Positions 24,894 through 56,300 of a DNA stretch of 64,000 bases are shown here, piece after piece. The position numbers and the translations under genes are program-made. The stretch covers positions 124,001 through 188,000 of the forward strand of contig CALFVF010000001.1 of NCBI GenBank assembly GCA_937928735.1. The letters are read 5' to 3'. The notes under the pieces are model-generated. The model was given only the letters and a program-made list of their open reading frames with translations. It was not told where the DNA came from and did not search any database. This DNA is from an uncultured Verrucomicrobiales bacterium (GTDB lineage: Bacteria > Verrucomicrobiota > Verrucomicrobiia > Verrucomicrobiales > Akkermansiaceae). Every line of letters starts with the position of its first letter. Position 1 is the stretch's first letter.

Positions 24894-24916
24894 CAAGTCG
24901 TCATATCCAATAGTCC

Positions 24917-25007
24917 GTGCTCTGATCTGAGCACAAATAGGGAGAAGCGAAATTCTCCCGCAATGACTGCTGATTTATGGGTCTCGTAGTCAAGAGACGA
25001 GACCCAT
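24917..25007. terminator. cluster of three hairpins between response regulator and desaturase genes
   Basis: Three hairpins follow one another: 24917-24922 with 24929-24934 (6 bp), 24940-24946 with 24953-24959 (7 bp, 6-base loop), and 24977-24987 with 24997-25007 (11 bp perfect, 9-base loop). The convergent genes end at 24893 and 25095, so the last could stop transcription in either direction. None is followed by a good T-tract, so they may act as mRNA 3'-end protectors or Rho-type ends instead. Confidence 0.55.
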
Positions 25008-25060
25008 GGAATGGAGGAATGGATAGGGCTCAAGCGCTATCGTTTCAGCCGCGATCATTG

Positions 25061-25111
25061 CTATGACGCAATAACTGTTATGATGCGCTAACTGCTATGA
25101 CGCGATGGCGT
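25061..25111. repeat. three imperfect 17-base tandem repeats at the desaturase 3' end
   Basis: Units start at 25061, 25078 and 25095 with the pattern 'ctatgacgcaataactg', 'ttatgatgcgctaactg' and 'ctatgacgcgatggcg'. The third unit is the last codons and stop of the minus-strand desaturase gene, so the other two look like duplications of its 3' end lying beyond the stop. Confidence 0.7.
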
Positions 25112-30462: not shown

Positions 30463-31089
30463 ATGAATATAAAAGAGATTGAGGATAAGTATTGGGAATT
30501 TCGACTGACGAGAAAAGGGGGCTTTAATAGCGTTTTTGAATTTTGTCAGGAAGTGGGGATCGAGGAGGCTAAGTTCTACGATTCTTATGCTAGTCTAGAG
30601 GTCATCGAGTCTGAGTACTGGAAGAGGACAGTGAGTGTGACTCTAGAGACTCTCAAGGCGGATAAGGACTTCGAGACGTATTCACTCGAGCAGAAGCTTT
30701 TGGCTTTCTTTTACACCTACATTTCAGGCATTCAGCCGTATCGTTCACGGCTTGTGGCTAGTTTCCCAACAACAGGGGGGATGTCGAAGTTACTTGGAAT
30801 GCGAAACGAGTTCTTAAAATTCGCCACGTCGGCTGTGAAAGAAGCGGTTACTGCGGGAGACATTGCGGATCGTAAAAAAATTAACGAAGCCTATGGCCCA
30901 GGGTTATTTGAGCAGTTTCGTATGATTCTGGAGTTCTATAAGCGAGATGAGAGTTCGGGGTTCCAGGACACCGATGCCTTTATTGAGAAGAGCGTGCGAC
31001 TTGGGATCTCTGCGGCACAAACTGGAGTGCTTGAGGCGGGCATGGACTTCGCGAGATTTATGGTGGGAAGGTTACCCAAGATTCGATGA
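30463..31089 (+). CDS. TetR-like helix-turn-helix protein paired with an ABC1 kinase
   Basis: A 208-residue helical protein. Its N-terminus has a weak TetR-type helix-turn-helix: 'SVFEFCQEVGIEEAKFYDSYASLE' has the spacing of the recognition helix and the following Tyr-x-x-Phe-like turn, although basic DNA-contact residues are few. The rest is a TetR C-terminal-like helical bundle. A TTG start at 30439 is possible but the ATG at 30463 is preferred. Its stop overlaps the ABC1 kinase start (ATGA). It could be a regulator, or a lipid-binding partner related in fold to COQ9, which works with UbiB-type kinases. Both are inference. Confidence 0.65.
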   Translation: MNIKEIEDKYWEFRLTRKGGFNSVFEFCQEVGIEEAKFYDSYASLEVIESEYWKRTVSVTLETLKADKDFETYSLEQKLLAFFYTYISGIQPYRSRLVASFPTTGGMSKLLGMRNEFLKFATSAVKEAVTAGDIADRKKINEAYGPGLFEQFRMILEFYKRDESSGFQDTDAFIEKSVRLGISAAQTGVLEAGMDFARFMVGRLPKIR

Positions 31090-32396
31090 AGCAGCAAACT
31101 TCGATCCCCAAACACAAGTTCACACGTGCAGCGACCTTGGCAGGAGCTGGTGCTCGGGTGGGTGCGAATTACCTGAAGTACGAGGTGCGTAAGCGCCTCA
31201 CAGGCAATCAGGATAAGACGTCCTTTCATGAGGATACAGCAGCTGAGGCCTTTGAGACCTTTAGTAAGATGAAAGGGGGGCCTCTTAAGCTCGCGCAGAT
31301 GCTCTCGATGGATCAAAATATGATCCCTGAGCAGTATGTGAATGAATTTGCGAAAGCTCAGTATTCAGTCCCTCCGCTATCCTACCCACTCGTCGTGCGG
31401 ACATTCCAGCGTGAGAAGGGGAAAGGGCCGACAGAAATCTTTGAGACATTCTCCAGAGAAGCTGTGGCTGGTGCCTCGATTGGCCAAGTGCATGAGGCGT
31501 CTCTCAATGGTGAGAAGTTAGCGGTGAAGATCCAGTACCCAGGGGTGGCGGATAGTTTACAGAATGACCTGCGAATCGTGAAGCCTATTGCGATGCGCCT
31601 ATTCTCACTGGATGCTCGGGCGATTGATCCCTATGTCAGTGAGGTGGAGGAGCGGCTGGTGGAGGAAACGGATTACACTCTTGAGCTACGCAGAAGCCAG
31701 GAGCTCGCAGCACAGTCCGCCCAGCTTGAGCGCACGAGATTTCCGAAGTTTTATCCGGATCTTAGCTCGGAGAAGATTCTTACGATGCAGTGGGTGCCGG
31801 GTGATTTAATGGATGCGTATGCGAACTCAGATGCTCCACAAGAAGAGAAAACAGCTGTGGGGCAGGCTCTGTGGGACTTTTACCATCACCAGATCCATGA
31901 ACTGCGGGTCTTCCATGCGGATCCTCACCCAGGGAATTTTAAGGTCGCAGATGGTGAATTGTGGGTGCTTGACTTTGGCTGTGTGAAGACACTTCCAGAG
32001 CCATTTTACCAAGATTATTTTAAATTCATGGATCCCACTCTTCCAGCGGATGATGCTCGATTTGAAAGAGTTCTCAGAAAAGTGCATTTACTGCTGCCAA
32101 GTGACACGCCAAGGCAGGTGGAATTACTCAAGGAGCTATTTCGAGAGAGTATCGAGCTGCTGAATCGGCCATTTCATGAGGGGAGCTTTGATTTTAGTGA
32201 TCAGAGTTATTTCGCGGAGTTGGCCGCCTTTGGGGAGCGCTCAAAAACAAATTCTGAGCTTCAAGTACTTAGTTCTGCCCGTGGTAGTGCTGATGCACTG
32301 TATCTGAATCGTACTTATTTTGGCCTCTACCATCTCTGTGGGGCGCTTGGGGCGAAGATCGAGACACGCTTGCCAGAGTTTTTGTGTCAGTCGTGA
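31086..32396 (+). CDS. ABC1/UbiB-family atypical kinase
   Basis: AarF/UbiB-like proteins are kinase-fold ATPases linked to isoprenoid quinone synthesis and lipid handling. The 436-residue product has the family's Ala-rich loop in 'AVAGASIGQVHEA' (in place of a Gly-rich loop), the ATP lysine in 'LAVKIQYPGV', the catalytic loop 'HADPHPGNF' and the metal 'LDFGCVK'. The KxGQ signature before the kinase domain reads 'LKLAQMLSMD', so Gly is replaced by Ala. No C-terminal membrane helices are evident, unlike E. coli UbiB. The gene overlaps the TetR-like gene by four bases. Ubiquinone or menaquinone genes are not in the window. Confidence 0.88.
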   Translation: MKQQTSIPKHKFTRAATLAGAGARVGANYLKYEVRKRLTGNQDKTSFHEDTAAEAFETFSKMKGGPLKLAQMLSMDQNMIPEQYVNEFAKAQYSVPPLSYPLVVRTFQREKGKGPTEIFETFSREAVAGASIGQVHEASLNGEKLAVKIQYPGVADSLQNDLRIVKPIAMRLFSLDARAIDPYVSEVEERLVEETDYTLELRRSQELAAQSAQLERTRFPKFYPDLSSEKILTMQWVPGDLMDAYANSDAPQEEKTAVGQALWDFYHHQIHELRVFHADPHPGNFKVADGELWVLDFGCVKTLPEPFYQDYFKFMDPTLPADDARFERVLRKVHLLLPSDTPRQVELLKELFRESIELLNRPFHEGSFDFSDQSYFAELAAFGERSKTNSELQVLSSARGSADALYLNRTYFGLYHLCGALGAKIETRLPEFLCQS

Positions 32397-32880
32397 TACT
32401 GAGTCGCCTGGTAGATTCATTCCTCAGGGGGTTGGTTCGTCCGGAGATTCACTCTCTTATTCTACTGCCAGAAATCGTCTTAGAGTGAGTCAGCTCAGAT
32501 TCTTTCTTTGATTTATGAAAGAAGGTTCTGGTATTTTCTGCTAAATTGGTAAAACTATTCCGAATTCTCTTGACTGTGAACAAAAGTCGAGTAATTCCTC
32601 TCTCCGCCTTGAGCCAAATTGCGTGATTTGGAGGGACTCTTGGCGCTGGAAAACAGATATTTACAGAATCATTGATGGAAAAAAATTCTGCGCTAATTCA
32701 AATTGCCAATGGGTGTTTCTAAGTGATTTATAATCAATGAGGTGGCTTTGCTAAAGTGAGGCTGCCTTTTGTGTTTTCTAGAGAAATTTCAGACGTTTCT
32801 TCAACAGAGATGTCAGAGGTGAGCCAACAAGAGGAAAAGAGTAGTATTAAACAGCATAGAATAAAATAGAGAAAAAGACT
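32397..32880. other. upstream part of the long rpoB intergenic region
   Basis: No supported gene lies here. A candidate sigma-70-type promoter is TTGACT (32570-32575), 16-base spacer, TAATTC (32592-32597). The same -35 hexamer is seen before the DUF1800 gene. If used, the rpoB transcript would have a leader of about 495 bases including the hairpins that follow. No rplJ or rplL gene is present. Confidence 0.35.
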
Positions 32881-32956
32881 GAGTGGCTAGATTTCAGCTC
32901 TGATACATGCAGATAACTTTGGTGAAACTGCATGTAAACAGGGCTGAAATCTACTC
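32881..32956 (+). promoter_or_regulatory. long imperfect hairpin in the rpoB upstream region
   Basis: A nearly continuous stem: 32889-32898 with 32943-32952 (10 bp), then T-G and 'ctg' 32900-32902 with 32939-32941, then 32904-32912 with 32928-32936 (9 bp), around a 15-base loop. 'gagt' 32881-32884 can pair with 'actc' 32953-32956. It lies 144 bases before the rpoB ATG and has no T-tract, so it is not a classic terminator. A leader regulatory structure or a small RNA is possible. Confidence 0.7.
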
Positions 32957-33012
32957 ATTCCAAGTGAGGCACAAAGACAGTATTTGCTGGATGTGTTTCA
33001 TAGAAGAAAGAG

Positions 33013-33067
33013 TAGGATCAGGATCCTATTTACCGAACATCTGCCTAGGCTGGAATCAGTGCTAGGC
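33013..33067 (+). promoter_or_regulatory. two short hairpins just before rpoB
   Basis: The first is 33013-33018 with 33023-33028 (6 bp, tetraloop). The second is 33043-33048 with 33062-33067 (6 bp) extended inside by CTG/CAG pairs around a GAAT loop. Together with the longer hairpin upstream they suggest a structured leader ending 32 bases before the start codon. Confidence 0.5.
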
Positions 33068-33099
33068 TCAACCGCCTCTAAGCAAACATAGAATCAACC

Positions 33100-36000
33100 A
33101 TGGCCGAAAGACGCTACTTTGGAACGATTGAAGAAGTCATTCAACCTCCGAACCTCATCGAGGTTCAGAGTAAATCTTATGAAGATTTCTTGCAGAAAGA
33201 TGTGCCCGCATCACAGCGAACTGAAACAGGACTACAGTCCGTATTGAGGGAGGTTTTCCCGATCAAGAGCTATGATGAGACCATAGAACTCGATTTCATC
33301 GCCTATGATATCGAAGATTCTAAGATCACAGCTTTAGAGGCGCTGCAGACTGGCGAAAGCTTCAGTGCAGCTCTTTATGTGACGTTCAAGCTCAAGGACG
33401 AGACTGGTACGAAGAAAGAGCGTGTCTACATGGGAGAGCTCCCGATGATGACGCGTCGTGGTACTTTTGTGATAAATGGCGCTGAGCGTGTGATCGTTTC
33501 TCAGCTCCACCGCTCACCTGGTATCTGTTTTGAAAAATCTCAGCACCTTAATGGGAAGGATCTCTTCTCTTTCCGTATCATCCCAGACCGTGGATCATGG
33601 CTTGAGACTCAGTTTGATACCAATGATCTACTCTATGTCTACCTAGATCGCCGTCGTCGTAGACGTAAGTTCTTAGCATCCACTTTCCTCCGTGCACTTG
33701 GATATCCGACGAACCGTGACCTAGTTTCTCAGTTCTATGACATTGAGAAACTCAAGCTCAAGCAGGAGATGGACGAGGAGGAACTTGCTATTAAATTACC
33801 ATTTGAAGATGTCTTTGATGGTGAAGTGGTTGTAGCAAAAGCACTTGAGCCAATGTCTATTGGTGTGGTGCGCCAGCTGATTGCTCTCGGCACAAAGTCG
33901 ATTGAAGTCATTAGCTCAGGCCCTGAGGACGTCTTTATTAAGTCACTGAAGAAAGATCCTTCACACGATGAAGAATCAGCTCTCAAGGACATTTACAAGA
34001 AGCTGCGCCCCGGTGATCCACCAACGGCTGCAAACGCTAAGGCACTGCTTAAGCGCCTTTTCTTCGATGAGAAGAAGTATGACCTCACTCGCGTGGGACG
34101 CTACAAGATCAATCAAAAGCTCGGCATTGAAGTCGACGCTGCTGAGCGCACTATGGTCGGTGAGGATTTCCTCAATGCCGTAAAGTATGTGCTCAAGCTG
34201 AAGGGTGGAGACGGGGTTCTCGATGATATCGATCACCTTGGTTCTCGTCGTGTACGTGCAGTGGGTGAGCTACTTGCAAATCAGTGTCGTGTCGGTCTGG
34301 CTCGTACAGAGCGCCTTGTGAAGGAGCGCATGACTCTCTTTGATGTGAATATCGAGGGCATGACACCTCAGAAACTCATTAACCCGAAGGCTCTCTCCGC
34401 TGTGGTTCGTGACTTCTTTGGCCGCTCACAACTCTCTCAGTTCATGGATCAGACAAATCCTCTGGCAGAGCTCACGCACAAGCGTCGTCTCTCGGCCCTT
34501 GGACCTGGTGGTTTGAACCGTGACCGTGCGGGTTTTGAGGTGCGTGATGTTCACCCATCTCACTATGGACGTATTTGCCCGATTGAGACTCCAGAGGGAC
34601 CAAATATTGGTCTCATTAACTCCATGTGTACGTATGCACGCATCAATGAATTTGGTTTCATTGAGACTCCTTATCGCAAGGTGGTCAAAGGTCGTGTGAC
34701 CAACGAAATCGAATATGTCACTGCGGATCAGGAGGAAAATTTCCTCATTGCTCAGGCAAACAACCCGATTGATTCTAAAGGAAATTTCCTCAATGAGCGA
34801 GTGACTGTGCGCGAGCGCGGTGAGTTCCTCGAGATGGAACCTAAAGACATCCAGTACATGGATGTTTCACCGAAGCAGCTCGTTTCTGTAGCTGCTGGTC
34901 TGATTCCTTTCCTTGAGCACGATGATGCGAACCGCGCACTGATGGGCTCAAACATGCAACGCCAAGGTGTGCCACTTCTCGTGTCAGAAGCACCATTTGT
35001 CGGTACTGGTCTTGAGGCTAAGGCCGCTGCGGATTCTCGCTCAGTAGTGATCTCTGAGTCAGATGGTATTGTCGCGGCCTCTACGGCAGAAATGATCGTT
35101 GTGTCTAAAGACGGTGCACTCCCAGTGTCTGATGAGCAGTTCATCTCAGATTCAGCTTCTGTAAACTCGAATCCTGAGAAAGGTGTATACGTCTACCCTC
35201 TGCGTAAGTTCATGCGCTCCAATGCGGGTACATGTATGAATCAGAAGCCGATTGTGAACCGTGGTGACAAGGTGAAAATCGGTTCTGTTCTCGCGGATGG
35301 GCCGAACACTGAAAACGGTGAGCTTGCTCTTGGTCGTAATGTTCTTGTGGCCTTCATGCCATGGAATGGATATAACTTTGAGGATGCGATTGTGATCTCA
35401 GAGAAAGTGGTGAAGGAAGATATCTATACTTCGATCCATATTTCTGAGTACGAATGCGCTGCTCGTGACACCAAGCTCGGGCCTGAGGAAATCACCCGTG
35501 ATATTCCAAATGTTGGTGAGGAAGCTCTCAAGAACCTCGATCATGACGGTATTGTCCGCATTGGTGCAGAGGTGAAGCCTGGTGATATCTTAGTAGGTAA
35601 GATCACGCCAAAGTCAGAGACAGAGCTCGCACCAGAAGAGCGCCTACTGCGCGCGATCTTCGGGGAGAAAGCCGCTGACGTAAAGGACACTTCACTCCGT
35701 GTGCCTTCTGGAACCATCGGTATTGTTCAGGACATTCGCATCAGCACGCATGGAGTCGCTCGCCGTAAAGGGGACGTGGATCCTGCTGAGATGAAGAAGC
35801 AGTTCAAGAAGATCAATGATGATCACAAGAAGAAAAAAGATGCTCTCATCAGTCAGCTAACAGAGAAGCTCTCTGACATCTTACTTGGGGAGAAAATTCC
35901 TCTGGATGTGGTGAACGCTCAGACGGGTGAAATCATCATTCCTGCGAACCGTAAGATCACAAAGACGCTCTTGCGTAAGCTCGCAGACATCCATGATCAT

Positions 36001-37032
36001 ATCGAAATTGATCCATCTCCGATCCGTAACAAGATCCTTGAAATCATCTCTTCTTTCGAAGGGCGTTTCCAGGAGCTAGATACAGATCGTGAGCGCCGTC
36101 TCGACCAGATCGAATCAGGGGACGAAGTGGATCCTGGCGTGATTAAAGAAGTGAAAGTCTATGTCGCCAAGAAGCGTAAGCTCTCTGTTGGTGATAAGAT
36201 GGCTGGTCGCCACGGTAACAAAGGTGTTGTTGCTGTGATCGTGCCAGAGGAGGACATGCCCTACACAGAAGACGGAACTCCAGTGGACATTTGTTTGAAC
36301 CCACTTGGTGTGCCTTCCCGAATGAACGTCGGTCAGGTTTTGGAAACTCACCTTGGAGTCGCGGCGAAAGCCCTTGGCTTCACGGTAGCTACGCCAATTT
36401 TTGATGGTATTCCTGAGGAGAAGATCTGGAACTACATGTCTGAGGCGAAGAAAGTCGAAGGCTACACCTGGATTGGTGATGGTAAAGATGGTTCTGTAGG
36501 CGGTAAGTCTACACTCATTGATGGCCGTACAGGTGAAGCGATTCACCAACCAGTGGTGGTAGGCTTTATCTACATGCTGAAGCTCGGTCACCTCGTGGCG
36601 GATAAGATTCACGCTCGTGCAGTGGGACCATACTCACTGGTCACACAGCAGCCGCTGGGTGGTAAGGCTCAGTACGGTGGCCAGCGATTCGGTGAGATGG
36701 AAGTCTGGGCGCTCGAAGCGTATGGAGCAGCTTATACCCTACAGGAAATGCTCACAGTGAAGTCCGATGACGTGCAAGGTCGTACAAGAATCTACGAGGC
36801 AATTGTCAAAGGTGACAATAACCTCGAAGCTGGTACGCCAGAGTCCTTTAATGTTCTCATTAAGGAAATGCAGTCACTCGGTCTGGATGTTCGCCCTGGT
36901 AAGAAGGGAGACCGCCCAGCACATGCGCAGGAGCCCACGGACTTTAGTGGAGGCTTTGATTTAAAGAATGATAGTCCTTCTAGTGATAATGATGCCTCTG
37001 ATGATTTCTCTCTCGATGATCTCACGCTCTAA
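33100..37032 (+). CDS. rpoB: RNA polymerase beta subunit
   Basis: Catalytic-core subunit of RNA polymerase, 1310 residues. The rifampicin region begins at about residue 442 ('[15 protein letters not shown]', then '[13 protein letters not shown]') and carries the sensitive-type Asp, His and Ser residues. Others: '[21 protein letters not shown]', '[18 protein letters not shown]', '[11 protein letters not shown]', and the C-terminal '[18 protein letters not shown]'. The C-terminus has an acidic, Ser-rich extension (about the last 35 residues). Unlike in most bacteria no rplJ-rplL genes precede it; a 700-base region with hairpins and an ABC1-kinase gene lies upstream. rpoC follows after 48 bases. 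Confidence 0.98.
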
Positions 37033-37080
37033 GCTCAACACAAACACAGACAATAAACTACTAACCGATAAACTTATATC

Positions 37081-40000
37081 ATGAGTGTTGAAACAAATCT
37101 TCGCGAATTATTCGGCGTTAATGACAAGCCAGAAGCTTTTGATCATGTCGCCATCACTGTCGCTCGTCCTGACATCATCCGCGGATGGTCACAGGGTGAG
37201 GTGCAGAACCCAGAAACAATCAACTACAGAACCTTTAAGCCCGAAAAAGGCGGCTTATTCTGTGAGCGTATCTTCGGCCCAACACGTGACTGGGAGTGTG
37301 CCTGTGGTAAGTACAAGCGCATTAAGCACAAGGGAGTGATCTGTGATCGCTGTGGTGTGGAAGTCACACTCTCACGCGTTCGTCGTGAGCGTATGGGTCA
37401 CATTGAGCTTTCTGTCCCTGTCTCTCACATTTGGTTCTACAAGTGTATGCCTTCTCGTATTGGTCTTGTGCTCGACATGAGTGCTCGCCACCTTGAGCGC
37501 GTCATTTACTATGAGGACTACATCGTGACTGACTCTGGCACGACACCACTTGAGCGTGGTCAGCTTCTCACAGAGAGTGAGCTGCGTGATGCTGAGGAAG
37601 ACTACGGTGAGGACACATTCCGTGCGGCTATGGGTGCTGAGGCACTCCAGGATCTACTCTCACAGGTTGATCTCCTTGAGCTTGTGAAAGAGCTCGAAGA
37701 AGCCATGGAAACCACTCGCTCCAAGCAGGTTCGCAAGAAGCTCGCTAAGCGTCTGAAGCTCGCTCAGGGTTTCCACACCTCAAAGAGCCGTCCAGAGTGG
37801 ATGATCATGAATGTTCTGCCGGTGATCCCGCCAGATCTTCGCCCGCTCGTACCTCTTGAGGGTGGACGTTTTGCGACATCAGATCTGAATGATCTCTATC
37901 GCCGTGTGATTAACCGTAACAATCGTCTAAAGAACCTTCTTCTACTGAAGACTCCAGAGGTGATTATCCGCAATGAGAAGCGCATGCTGCAGGAAGCTGT
38001 GGATGCTCTCTTTGATAATGGTCGTCATGGCCGCGCTGTCACAGGTGCTGGTAACCGTGCGCTGAAGTCACTCTCTGACATGCTTAAGGGTAAGGGTGGC
38101 CGTTTCCGCCAGAACTTACTTGGTAAGCGCGTGGATTACTCTGGTCGTTCTGTGATCGTGGGTGGCCCTGAGCTTAAGCTTGGTCAATGTGGTCTTCCTA
38201 AGAAGATGGCACTCACACTCTTTGAGCCATTTATCATCCGCCGCCTGAAGGAACTCGGCTACTGCCACACAGTGCGCTCAGCCAAGAAGATGATTGATCG
38301 TAAGACTACAGAGGTCTGGGACATCCTCGCTGAAGTGACGAAAGGTCACCCAGTGATGCTCAACCGCGCCCCGACTCTTCACCGTCTCTCTATCCAGGCC
38401 TTTGAGCCAGTGCTCATTGAGGGCTCAGCGATTCGTGTGCACCCACTGGTGTGTACTGCGTACAATGCTGACTTTGACGGTGATCAGATGGCGGTTCACG
38501 TGCCACTTTCTGTGGAAGCACAGATGGAAGCGCGTCAGCTGATGCTAGCTCCAAATAACATCTTCTCACCATCTTCTGGTAAGCCGATTACGACTCCATC
38601 GCAGGATATTATTCTCGGTGGTTACTACCTCACCTACTCACGTATTCGCACAGCAGCGGAGCGTGAGCGCATGAAGGAAGTGCATTTACCACTCTTTGAG
38701 AACACCACTGAGGTAGAGTTCGCGATTGCCTCTCGCAAGGTGAAGTACCACGATTTGATTCGTCTGCGTAACCCAGATTTCGCTAAGGAATCTGTCTTTG
38801 GTGATGCAGAGAGCAAGATTATTGAGACGACTGCTGGTCGTGTCCGCTTTAATGAAATCTGGCCAGAAGGTCTTGGCTTCATTAACTTCAATGTGGGCAA
38901 GAAGCAGATCGGTGATGTGATCTGGCGCTGCTACCAAGTTTCTGGTAAGGAACAAACCGTAGAAGCTCTCGATGACCTCAAGGCTCTCGGCTTTAAGGAG
39001 GCGACTCGTTCTGGTATCTCTATCGGTATCGTCGACATGGTGATTCCAGAGGAGAAGCCAGCTGAGCTTGAGAAAGCGTATGCAGAGATCGACACTGTCA
39101 CTGAGCGCTATCAGAATGGTGTGATCACAGATGGTGAGCGCTACCAGCAGGTGGTGGATACATGGACTCGCTGTGGTGATAATATCGCCAATGCTCTCTA
39201 CCGTAAGTTAGAGCATAACGAAGGTGAAGAAATGGCGAACCCACTCTACATGATGGTGGACTCTGGTGCTCGTGGTAACAAAGCACAGATTAAGCAGCTC
39301 TCAGGAATGCGTGGTCTGATGGCGAAGCCTTCTGGTGAGATCATTGAGCGTCCAATTACCTCGAACTTCCGTGAAGGTCTCTCTGTACTTGAGTACTTCA
39401 TTTCCACGCACGGTGCGCGTAAGGGACTTGCTGATACAGCTCTTAAGACTGCGGACTCAGGCTACATGACTCGTAAGCTTGTGGATGTGTCTCAAGACGT
39501 GATCATCAATGAGTCTGACTGTGGTACTGTCAATGGTATCGTTGTGAAGCCAATCTACGATGGTGATGAGGAAACTGCCTCACTCGCCTCACGTATCTAT
39601 GGTAGAACATCTTGTGAGCAGGTGATTGATCCTGTCTCAGGTGAGGTGATCATCAAGGTCAATGACATCATCTCGGAAACTCAGGCAGATGCTGTTGAGA
39701 ACATTGGTTATGAGCGTCTAAAGATTCGCTCTATCCTGACTTGCGAAGCAGATAAAGGCTGCTGTGCCCACTGCTATGGCCTGAATCTCGCGACTGGTGA
39801 AATCGGTAAAGATGGCGAAGCTGTCGGAATTATTGCCGCTCAATCGATTGGTGAGCCAGGTACTCAGCTGACAATGCGTACATTCCACGTTGGTGGTGTG
39901 GCGACAAATGTCGCGAAGCAACCAGAAATCAAGGCGAAGAATGGTGGTACAGTGGTTTACAAGAACCTACGTACCGTAAAGGACCCAGAGGGTAACTTCG

Positions 40001-41268
40001 TTGTTCTCAATAAGAATGGTTCTGTACTCGTGAATGACGCGGACGGTCTTACTCTAGATGAGAACTTCCTAGTGATCGGTTCCGTGATTAGCGTAGCTGA
40101 TGGCGAGAAGGTCAAGAAAGGGAAAGTCTTTGTCACATGGGATCCATACAACGTACCGATTCTCACAGAGAAGCCAGGTAAGATTGAGTTCCGTGACATG
40201 ATTTCTGGTATCACAGTTTCCACGGAAACTGATAAGGAAACGGGTAAGAAGGGCATGGTTGTTACCGAGCACAAAGAAGATCTTCACCCAATGGTACTTA
40301 TCCTTGATGAGAAGACTTCGGAAGTTCTTGCTCAGTATCCAGTGCCAGTCGGTGCTCACCTTTCTGTCACAGAAGGGAAAGTTGTTGCTGGTGGTAGCCA
40401 ACTTGCGAGAACGCCTCGTAAGGCTTCTAAGACAAAGGACATTACTGGTGGTCTTCCTCGAATTGCTGAGCTCTTTGAGGCTCGTAAGCCGAAGGATGCT
40501 TGCACAATTGCAAAAATCGACGGTGAAGTTTCCTTTGGTGCGAATGTTCGCGGCAAGAAGAAGGTGATTGTGACCAATCAGGAAACTGGTGAAAGTGCCG
40601 ACCACCTCGTTGCTATGAATAAGCCAGTCACAGTGGGTGAGGGTGATATTCTCGCGCGTGGTGAACAAATCACTGATGGCCCGATTTCTCCAGAAGACTT
40701 GCTAGAGGCTTGTGGTGCGCAGGAGCTCCAGGAGCACCTTGTGAATGAAGTGCAAGCGGTGTACCGACTGCAGGGTGTAGAGATCAATGACAAGCACATT
40801 GAGATCATCATTCGCCAGATGCTTCGTAAGGTGAAAATCACCGAGCCTGGTGATAGTGAATTCCTCTGGGGTGACCAAGTGGATCGCACGTCCTTTGTGA
40901 AAGCTAACCGTGAGATCGAAATCCAAGGTGGTAAAGCTGCCGAGGGTGAGCCAGTACTACTTGGTATTACGAAGGCATCTCTCGAGACAGATTCCTTTAT
41001 CTCAGCCGCTTCCTTCCAGGACACGACACGTGTTCTTACAGAGGCGGCGACTCTAGGGCGCGTCGATAATCTCGAAGGCTTTAAGGAAAACGTCATCATG
41101 GGTCACCTCATTCCTGCGGGAACAGGTTTCCCAACGCACAAGGAAGCTCGCTTTGAATTCACAGAGCAGCCAACTATGCTGACTCAGGAAAGTGAGGATG
41201 CAGCGACTGGCACCGAAGGTGCGGAAGCGACTCCTGCTGTAGCTGCCGAAGACGAATTCACCGTCTAA
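37081..41268 (+). CDS. rpoC: RNA polymerase beta' subunit
   Basis: Largest subunit of RNA polymerase, 1395 residues. N-terminal zinc site: C73, C75, C88 and C91 in 'CACGKYKR' and 'CDRCGVE'. The catalytic Mg2+ loop is N462-A-D464-F-D466-G-D468. The second zinc site includes '[15 protein letters not shown]' (about 890-905). The bridge helix/trigger-loop segment includes '[23 protein letters not shown]' (about 725), given here in part only. A long insert of the usual sandwich-hybrid type lies between 940 and 1130. The tail of about 25 residues is Ala/Glu/Thr-rich. A perfect terminator follows 25 bases after the stop. Confidence 0.98.
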
Positions 41269-53071: not shown

Positions 53072-53113
53072 TCAAAAGGTATCAGAGTAGCGAAGAATAA
53101 AAAATCTGCGCTA

Positions 53114-53150
53114 CATTTATAGGAGAGGCGAAGTGTTTCTCCTATAAATG
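53114..53150. terminator. perfect hairpin downstream of mscL
   Basis: A perfect 13-bp stem (53114-53126 with 53138-53150) with an 11-base loop, 42 bases after the mscL stop. There is no T-tract, so it may be a Rho-type or 3'-protecting structure. Confidence 0.65.
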
Positions 53151-53381
53151 ATTCCAATAGTACTATTTGAACTCACGTAGTTGTGACTACTTAAAGTGGA
53201 GTTGATAGCTTGCTTGAAATTAGTATAAAATAAGCAAGTATATGTAATTTTATTGTGTAATCTATCAGATTTTCAGCGAGGTTTTAACGAATTGCGGCAA
53301 TTCTCGAATCGAAGCCTATTAACCTTGACTTTATACACTTTTGAGAGCTAATTAGCGCCAGATTACATATAGAACAACTAC
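53151..53381 (+). promoter_or_regulatory. intergenic region with a candidate promoter for the DUF1800 gene
   Basis: An A+T-rich region without genes. TTGACT (53325-53330), an 18-base spacer and TAATTA (53349-53354) form a plausible sigma-70-type promoter, giving a leader of about 20 bases before the ATG at 53382. The -35 and -10 are similar to those proposed upstream of rpoB. Confidence 0.4.
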
Positions 53382-56300
53382 ATGAGAAGCAGATCTATTT
53401 TTCAACAGGTCGCCGCTCTTAGTTTTCTCCTAACCCCCCTACATGCAGAAACCTTTGAAGACTGGCAACAGCGTAACTTCAACCCTTCACAACTTTCTGA
53501 TGATACAGTATCAGGGTTGTTAGCTCAACCTAACCAAGACGGTCTGACCAATCTTGTTAAGTATGCGCTAGGGCTTGATTTTAATGAACTTCCAAACACA
53601 GCCGTGCCTCAAGCGGATGTTTCAGCAATTCGAGCTGGAGCTCTCAATGTGAGCTTTACAAGGCCCTCGGATTTGGAAGATGTGACATACCAAGTGCAGT
53701 ACACATCCACTCTCGATGAGACTACCCCGCCAGAGATTGCCTCATTGACTGTGACAACTCTCCCAAATGGTGACGAACTTGTTGCTGCACAAGATCCTAA
53801 TCCAGGTGCGGGAGCTCCTAGGTTTGCTCGTCTCTTCATTATCCATGATTCGGGTGTGACTTCTAGTCCTGCCACTAATTTAGTTGCGACACCAACTAGT
53901 GCGACTGAGGTGTTTCTGGAATGGGAAAGTAATCAGACCTCTGGAGGGTTCTTGATTGAGCGTTCTGTTGAGGGTGGTGAGTTTGAAGTTGTGGGTTTTG
54001 TGCCAGCTGGGACGAATTCTTTCCAAGCAAGGAATTTGATTCCTGGTGAAGAGGTCACTTTCCGTGCAGTTGCTGTGAGTGCTACGAGCAGTGTGGATTC
54101 CACGCCTAGTGAGTCTGTCTCTGCGACTCCTCTTATTGGAAGTGATGGGGCTGTGATTTTGCGGTTTGCCAACACCTCTGGTTTCGATAATACGAGGCTA
54201 GCGCTGAACATGGTGGTTGAGAATTCGACCAATGAGGATATTCCATTACAAGATCTCACGATACGTTACTGGATGCGTAACGAAGACAGGGATACACCGA
54301 TTACCTTTAATAATTTCTTCTCTGAAGTCAGAGGTAATAGTGCAGGTGATCTTGGTGGTGGTCCTACCATTGTGATCTCAGAAGTCTCACCTGTGCTAGA
54401 AGGTTCTGACCGTACGATAGACTTTGTCTTCCCAGCAGCAACAGGAGTGTTGCCAGCGAGAGGAGCGATTGGTATCGAAGGAGCTCTTTATCGTAATTTT
54501 CAACCTGGAACCTTTGATCCCACCAACGACTTTTCCTTCCAAGCCGGCAATGACGCGGTGATCAACAATAGGATGAATATCCTTAGAAACGGTGAGTTGA
54601 TCTTTGGCGTTGAACCAGGAGGTGGTTCGGGTGGTGATGGCCGCCCTGATAGTCCAATCGCTCTGCGAACACAGAGTCTTAGTGAGTCCTCCATTGCTCT
54701 TAGCTGGGAAGATAACTCAACGAACGAAACTTTATTTATCATTGAGCGTAGCTTTGATGAAAACGATGATGGCTTTGGTGTCGTCACTAGTGTACAGCCA
54801 AATACAACCAGCTTTGAAGATAGCAATTTGCTAGACAATGCGCAGTACCAATACAGGGTGCGCGCTGTGAATCCTAATGGAGTTTCCTCGGCAACGAACA
54901 TTGCGAGTGGAGTGACTTTTGAAGGTATTTCTCCGCAGTTCACACCCGTGACGCCAAGAGATCTCAATGTGTCTACGTTTTCTAGTGGTCGCTTAGATAT
55001 TGATTGGACAGATGCCTCACGCAATGAATTCGGATTTGTGATCGAGCGTCGTGTCCCTGGTGGGAGCTTTACAGAAGTTGGCCGTGTTCCTGCGGGGACG
55101 ACTTCTTTCATTGATTTTGGACTCGATCCAGCCACGAGCTACACATACCGCGTCAGAGCATTTAACCTTGCTGGTGAGAGTACTTCGAGTAACTCGATTG
55201 CGAGCACAGATGCGTCTGATCCAGAAATTGATCTGACCGATGCAGAGATCACTCGCTTCTTAAGACAAGCCGCATTTGGGGCAACTCCTGAGCTGATTGA
55301 GGAAGTCCGAACTCTTGGTTTCGAGGCGTGGATTGACCAGCAGTTTACACTCCCCCCGACACTCCATCTTCCGCAGACGAGAGCTTTGGGTGGTGACCAA
55401 GCGGCTCGCGTTGAAGCGTGGTGGCAGACAGCTCTAACCGCTCCTGATCAAGTTCGTCAGCGTTTAGCATTTGCCCTTAGTCAGATCTTTGTAGTTTCCC
55501 AAGCCGATGGCGATTTGGCCGATCAGGCAGTGGGACTAGCAAACTACTACGATATGTTAGTGCAGGCTCCAGAGTCAAACTTCCGTGAGCTGCTAGAGGA
55601 TATTACCTTCAGCCCTGTAATGGGGAACTATCTGGATCACACACGCAATCAGAGAGCGAATGGGAATGCTAGACCAGATGAGAACTATGCGCGTGAGATC
55701 ATGCAGCTCTTTAGTATTGGTCTCAATCGTCTTAACCTCGATGGAACACCTATCCTAGATAGCGACGGTAATCCAAGACCTACCTACGTACAGGCAGATA
55801 TCGAGCAGGTGGCGCGTATATTTACTGGGCTGACCTTTGCTGGTTCGAGTAATTTCTTCACGAGTGCAGAAAACTACATCGACCCAATGATCCTGTTTCC
55901 TGCATTCCATGAAAATGGATCCAAGGTATTCAGTGCATTGACTTCTGATATTCCTAGCATTGATGCTCTTAGCTCAGGAGAGGATCCTCTCAGTGACTTT
56001 GAAGCAATTCACGATGGCTTAGCGAATCATTCCAGCAACCCGCCATTTATTTGTCGTCAGCTGATTCAGCGCACAGTGACAAGTAATCCAAGCCCTGCCT
56101 TCATCGAGCGTATTGCCCAAGTCTATGTCGATAATGGAAGTGGTGTACGCGGTGACTTCAAGGCAGTGTTTAAGGCGATACTTCTCGATTACGAAGCTCG
56201 TAGCCTTGATCCTCGTGACAGTATCACCTACGGGAAGCAACGTGAACCACTCATTCGCTTAGCGAGTACTCTGAGAATGCTCAATGCCTCAGCTGGCACT

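Follow-up and report, generated by a model that had tools for sequence, protein, structure and literature searches.

In E. coli, the spacer between rplL and rpoB is described in a passage of PMC4670729 as an attenuator, and in a passage of PMC2777011 as a substrate of RNase III. The supposed role of the region is to set the supply of polymerase apart from that of the ribosomal proteins, and how RNA polymerase is set separately from ribosomal proteins of the same operon is incompletely understood even in E. coli (both points as stated in sections of PMC4670729). Precedent for structured RNAs associated with rpoB is given by the Lacto-rpoB RNA (RF01709), an RNA named for rpoB that a table in PMC2864571 gives as structured, rated likely cis-regulatory, and present in Lactobacillales only. 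A table in PMC2659441 also lists, for Shewanella, a predicted motif in the 5′-UTR of rpoB that is linked to transcriptional attenuation. Like the element presented here, the Shewanella motif is a computed structure before rpoB, but it is proteobacterial, and we liken the two by description alone. For Verrucomicrobiota, a search of the open literature found no description of an rpoB leader RNA.

The window that we analyze is a stretch of 64,000 nucleotides (bases 124001-188000 of contig C1) in the 2.65 Mb genome of a marine bacterium, whose closest named relatives are Rubritalea and other Akkermansiaceae (Verrucomicrobiota). A first-pass annotation of this stretch had remarked that rpoBC comes without rplJ or rplL in front, and that it is preceded by a gene-free gap of some 700 bases behind an ABC1-kinase gene. 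Both remarks are borne out. The gap between the kinase gene and rpoB-rpoC (32397-33099) is 703 bases in length, its upstream neighbor has a PF03109 domain, and there is no long ORF in it (the longest, of 63 aa, overlaps the kinase gene). The annotation had also suggested looking for rplKAJL elsewhere, and it is found on another contig (C27), where rplK-A-J-L closes with the only rplL of the genome and an ordinary terminator comes next.

Unlike the E. coli region, which has rplL on one side and rpoB on the other, the leader in the source genome has no rplL upstream. We observe rpoB in 11 of the 12 genomes of this Rubritalea-like genus, the remaining genome being listed as 58% complete. In 3 of those 11, rplL is found about 235 nt before rpoB; in the other 8 the two genes are apart, in every case on different contigs, and rplL now has a hairpin and U-run of its own at its end. 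Among 80 named loci, rplL is ahead of rpoB in 72, Rubritalea marina (L036) being one of them, and the 8 loci without it fall in the Rubritalea-like clade. Seven of these 8 repeat genomes of the genus (as judged by upstream identity), and the eighth is L058 (CAKZON010000109.1). L058 is labelled Crocinitomix (Bacteroidota), it has a Rubritalea-type rpoB and leader nearly equal to those of genome G002, and the RpoB tree places the two together; it is probably a mis-binned contig. In that tree, the split rows all fall to the same side of a branch (support 48/86), a result that does not tell one split from several. The upstream neighbors differ among the split genomes that were read (MarR-like, peptidase-like, sulfatase-like, and symporter-like, by sequence reading and not by family search), thus the unit that stays together is the leader plus rpoBC.

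The structure in the gap is limited to 32731-33099 (z -6.89), its last ~360 bases, and the preceding bases 32397-32730 are unstructured. As controls, of 13 other gaps of at least 90 bases in the window, 2 drop below z -4 for the + strand, each of them flanked by convergent genes, and ten 250-nt pieces of the rpoBC coding sequence have a mean z of about -1. The features of the locus are given in Table 1.

Table 1. Features of the rpoBC locus, in coordinates of the window.
Feature	Position	Strand	Evidence and remarks
ABC1-family kinase gene, upstream neighbor	31086-32396	+	PF03109, E 8.8e-52; context only, other split genomes have different neighbors
Unstructured 5′ part of the gap	32397-32738	+	z -1.16 for 32397-32730; would hold the presumed new promoter
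H1, terminator-like hairpin (stem 32739-32768, U-rich tail)	32739-32778	+	Terminator scan; fold -16.4, z -3.39
H2, long hairpin	32881-32960	+	Fold, covariation, single copy
H2 helix	32881-32886 with 32955-32960; mismatch 32887/32954; 32888-32902 with 32939-32953		
H2 own apical helix	32904-32912 with 32928-32936	+	Apical extension spans 32904-32936
Two short predicted hairpins (32965-33000; 33010-33031)	32965-33031	+	Fold -21.7, z -4.08
H3, start-proximal stem, 10 pairs, one-base bulge	33043-33067	+	Covariation over five genomes
YAACCG	33069-33074	+	Second copy ahead of rpoC at 37062-37067
rpoB	33100-37032	+	Rpb2 domains
rpoC	37081-41268	+	Rpb1 domains

The RNA fold of 32860-32975, which holds H2, has -43.8 kcal/mol, compared with -20.8 (sd 3.05) for shuffled sequences (z -7.55), and none of the 200 shuffles is as stable. 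The very long hairpin that the first-pass annotation had placed at 32889-32952 is real by this measure, and that span is the core of a full helix that reaches from 32881 to 32960. The annotation was also right that the long hairpin has no T-tract. As an intrinsic terminator H2 is ruled out, because no U-run or T-tract comes directly after the stem; the terminator scan listed only H1.

When the 11 genomes are aligned, 94.3% of the cells of H2 are paired, in comparison with 81.0% (sd 1.6) in shuffles. Double changes are found in 9 of the 21 pairs, adding up to 27 cells where 9.0 are expected, and the covariation score is 0.480 versus 0.213 in the shuffles, none of which (0/500) scores as high. 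If the partners are shifted by 1-3 columns, the pairing falls to 28-52%. The check for covariation and conservation of the stem that had been proposed with the annotation thus leaves the hairpin standing, as H2 covaries over all the genomes that show rpoB (11 of the 12 in the genus). Restricting the alignment to the 8 split genomes leaves 158 of 167 cells paired, with changes on both sides in 8 of the 21 pairs, an argument that the hairpin stayed under selection after the operon split.

Within the genus, a covariance model built on H2 hits a single place in each genome, ahead of rpoB. The model also matches the reverse strand at the same place, as an inverted repeat predicts, and there is one weak match elsewhere (in genome G003, E 0.84). 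Among 69 sources, its matches are the window and L058 alone, and the 67 other loci, outside the genus, are without a match at E up to 1, so that what is shared more widely is position and layout. Used as a DNA query against 58 genomes, the whole gap matched the source genome alone, because the sequence turns over while the structure stays, and protein-anchored loci were required. In five split genomes (L053, L057, L061, L060, and L040), we also see a near-identical block, CAGCGGAAAUGCCUGAGGACGCUCAGUGUAGAUGCA, directly after H2, which is absent from the source genome and from G002.

For H1, the scan reports terminator-like hairpins at chance level (1 found, 0.8 expected). By alignment, H1 is present in 10 of the 11 genus genomes, G003 being the one that lacks it, and in the source genome the U-run that follows is weak. 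Counting pairs on alignment A2, 90.8% of the cells are paired (11 genomes), and the covariation is modest, with 4 of 12 pairs, a level that 11 of 500 shuffles reach. The sequence UUUUUGCGC comes after H1 in 8 of the 11 genomes (it is absent in the source genome, G003, and G006), and in other Akkermansiaceae the U-run after H1 is mostly missing. The E. coli spacer is likewise very stable (z -7.98), with the order hairpin, UUUUUGCGC, long hairpin, as in the genus, and the long duplex that the E. coli type has downstream of a terminator-like hairpin is matched here by H2. For the attenuator that had been suggested for this gap, the candidate is thus H1 and not the long hairpin.

The E. coli region overlaps the Rfam family P26 (RF00630) with 74.5 bits; in the genus, the P26 model is over cut-off in 0 of 12 genomes, and it has no match at the rpoB leader. 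An Rfam search of the window reports no family over cut-off and four weak matches at E up to 10. The L10 leader, which we take to be RF00557, is below cut-off in the window and is none of those four, and for Lacto-rpoB (RF01709) nothing in the window matches up to E 10.

Closer to the start codon, H3 is fully paired (50 of 50 cells) in the five genomes with this form of the stem, and both partners have changed in 7 of its 10 pairs. Five other genus genomes have, at the same position, a different stem with a conserved loop, and the stem of G002 is unlike both forms. The motif YAACCG is invariant in every genus genome having rpoB, 25-31 bases before the rpoB start. Its copies in the window are fewer than chance would give (17 vs. 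30.65), yet it appears shortly before both rpoB and rpoC. Across 82 loci examined, 13 have YAACCG within 60 bases, and 12 of these 13 are Rubritalea-like. A recognizable Shine-Dalgarno pairing upstream of the start is found for about 4 of the 36 genes examined in the window, and rpoB and rpoC have none.

Upstream of H1, we can read from the sequence the hexamers TATAAT (32729-32734) and TTGCCA (32703-32708), with a spacer of 20 bases; a promoter scan of the gap reported no site that passed. Presumably, the new promoter of rpoBC sits in 32397-32738.

How far does this structure extend among relatives? For the 80 named loci, the region before rpoB has z < -2 in all 80 and z < -3 in 77 (taking, for the 8 split loci, the 360 nt that precede rpoB), and the same region has z < -2 in ten of ten order-level loci. 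Three other groups with 13, 15, and 16 loci, which make up 44 of the 72 joined loci, present three helices in the same order. The pairs doubly changed in those groups are 13/29, 19/29, and 15/33, respectively, and 0 of 500 shuffles reach the covariation score; in one of the alignments of these groups, A5, the third helix hardly varies, so that it says nothing on covariation. The largest hairpin per spacer has a median of 21 pairs in 103 spacers (14 sequences are present twice), compared with 13 in shuffles of a subset. The leader corresponds to the rplL-rpoB spacer of related Akkermansiaceae, and it predates the separation from rplL, given that this spacer is still present in 72 of the 80 named relatives. 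As for the idea of a structured leader specific to rpoBC, it is supported in that the element covaries and is found once per genome, always ahead of rpoB; what does not hold is that it is peculiar to this gap, since it has its counterpart in the rplL-rpoB spacer of the relatives.

Single-sequence folds of several Akkermansiaceae also propose a long-range helix between a segment that follows the rplL stop and another ahead of the rpoB start. We find it unsupported as a general feature, because both segments vary little or are palindromic, and there are few such pairs in the consensus folds. A separate observation on these spacers is that in L054, L063-L066, L070, L072, and their kin, nearly invariant GGGCCCGGCCGGAG ... 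CUCCGUUCGUGCCC and ACGGAAUUGCAAUUCC stand in a spacer that is otherwise fast-changing, and that in the same spacer CUCCGGAUUU after rplL faces AUCCGGAU before the rpoB start.

With hairpins preserved by matching mutations in relatives, the leader very probably functions in control or processing and is not a chance sequence. The reading that we favor, and that we consider to have about an even chance of being correct, is that 32739-33099 is the 5′ leader of rpoBC, equivalent in Verrucomicrobiota to the region of attenuation and RNase III processing between rplL and rpoB of E. coli, and that after the split it would be a free-standing cis-acting element. Its mechanism we infer, attenuation and cleavage included, and so too any autoregulation. 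Transcripts would start shortly before H1, and H1 would let only part of the polymerases pass (attenuation). RNase III, or some comparable nuclease of double-stranded RNA, could then cut the long, nearly perfect duplex of H2, and this cleavage would set the mature 5′ end of the rpoBC mRNA; the source genome does encode an RNase III gene. H3, just before the start codon, may with the invariant YAACCG tune the translation of a start site without Shine-Dalgarno. Several observations speak against attenuation and processing: the U-run of the source genome is weak, H1 covaries modestly and is lost from G003, other Akkermansiaceae mostly have no U-run there, no site scored in the promoter scan, and H2 is undetected beyond the genus.

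Other readings have to be weighed against a leader of attenuation and processing. One is autogenous regulation, in which a protein (β/β′, an assembly intermediate, or other RNA-binding protein) would bind the leader and repress rpoBC when polymerase is in excess. The leader did persist with rpoBC after the separation from rplL, YAACCG is invariant, and in some groups the loops or flanks are nearly so. We consider this regulation unlikely, for in H2 and H3 the sequences turn over and the helices stay, which points to a shape rather than to a sequence-specific putative binding site. Conserved structure with free sequence change is also what one expects if the hairpins merely guard the rpoBC transcript from 5′ decay, or separate ribosomes and nucleases, with no regulation at all, and the sole perfect -10 hexamer would in fact place the start at the base of H1. 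Such a purely stabilizing role seems improbable to us: three helices, in fixed order and family-wide, exceed the needs of a generic 5′ stabilizer, and H1 is not at a 5′ end where rplL is joined.

A separate small RNA made from the gap, as the first-pass annotation had also contemplated, could draw on the terminator-like hairpin and on the high stability of H2. We regard it as very unlikely, given an H2 without T-tract, and a free sRNA finds no support because the element is always in sense, directly before rpoB. The near-perfect inverted repeat in the DNA could also bring to mind a mobile palindromic repeat (REP/MITE) inserted ahead of rpoB. That possibility has next to no probability left, as it is contradicted by a single copy per genome and by a fixed position, the same in 11 of 11 genomes, with covariation.

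The genus provides a natural experiment. In 8 of 11 genomes, rpoBC left the operon; its neighbor changed, as did probably its promoter, whereas the folded leader remained in place and continued to covary, which suggests that the leader serves rpoBC itself and is more than a spacer or the tail of rplL. A larger proposal, possible but on balance doubtful, is that a class of cis-regulatory RNA not yet described is present in Verrucomicrobiota and sets the supply of β/β′ independently of the ribosomal proteins. The element alone would then suffice, so that rpoBC could leave the ancient rplKAJL-rpoBC operon and keep its control. Attenuation, processing, and control of translation are all made testable by the natural pairs of joined and split loci.

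Other gaps in the window are also structured. The one at 24894-25094, between convergent genes, is very stable on both strands (z -6.8 and -5.3) and is perhaps a two-way terminator, and the one at 53072-53381, ahead of a gene that starts at 53382, has z -3.8 on the + strand.
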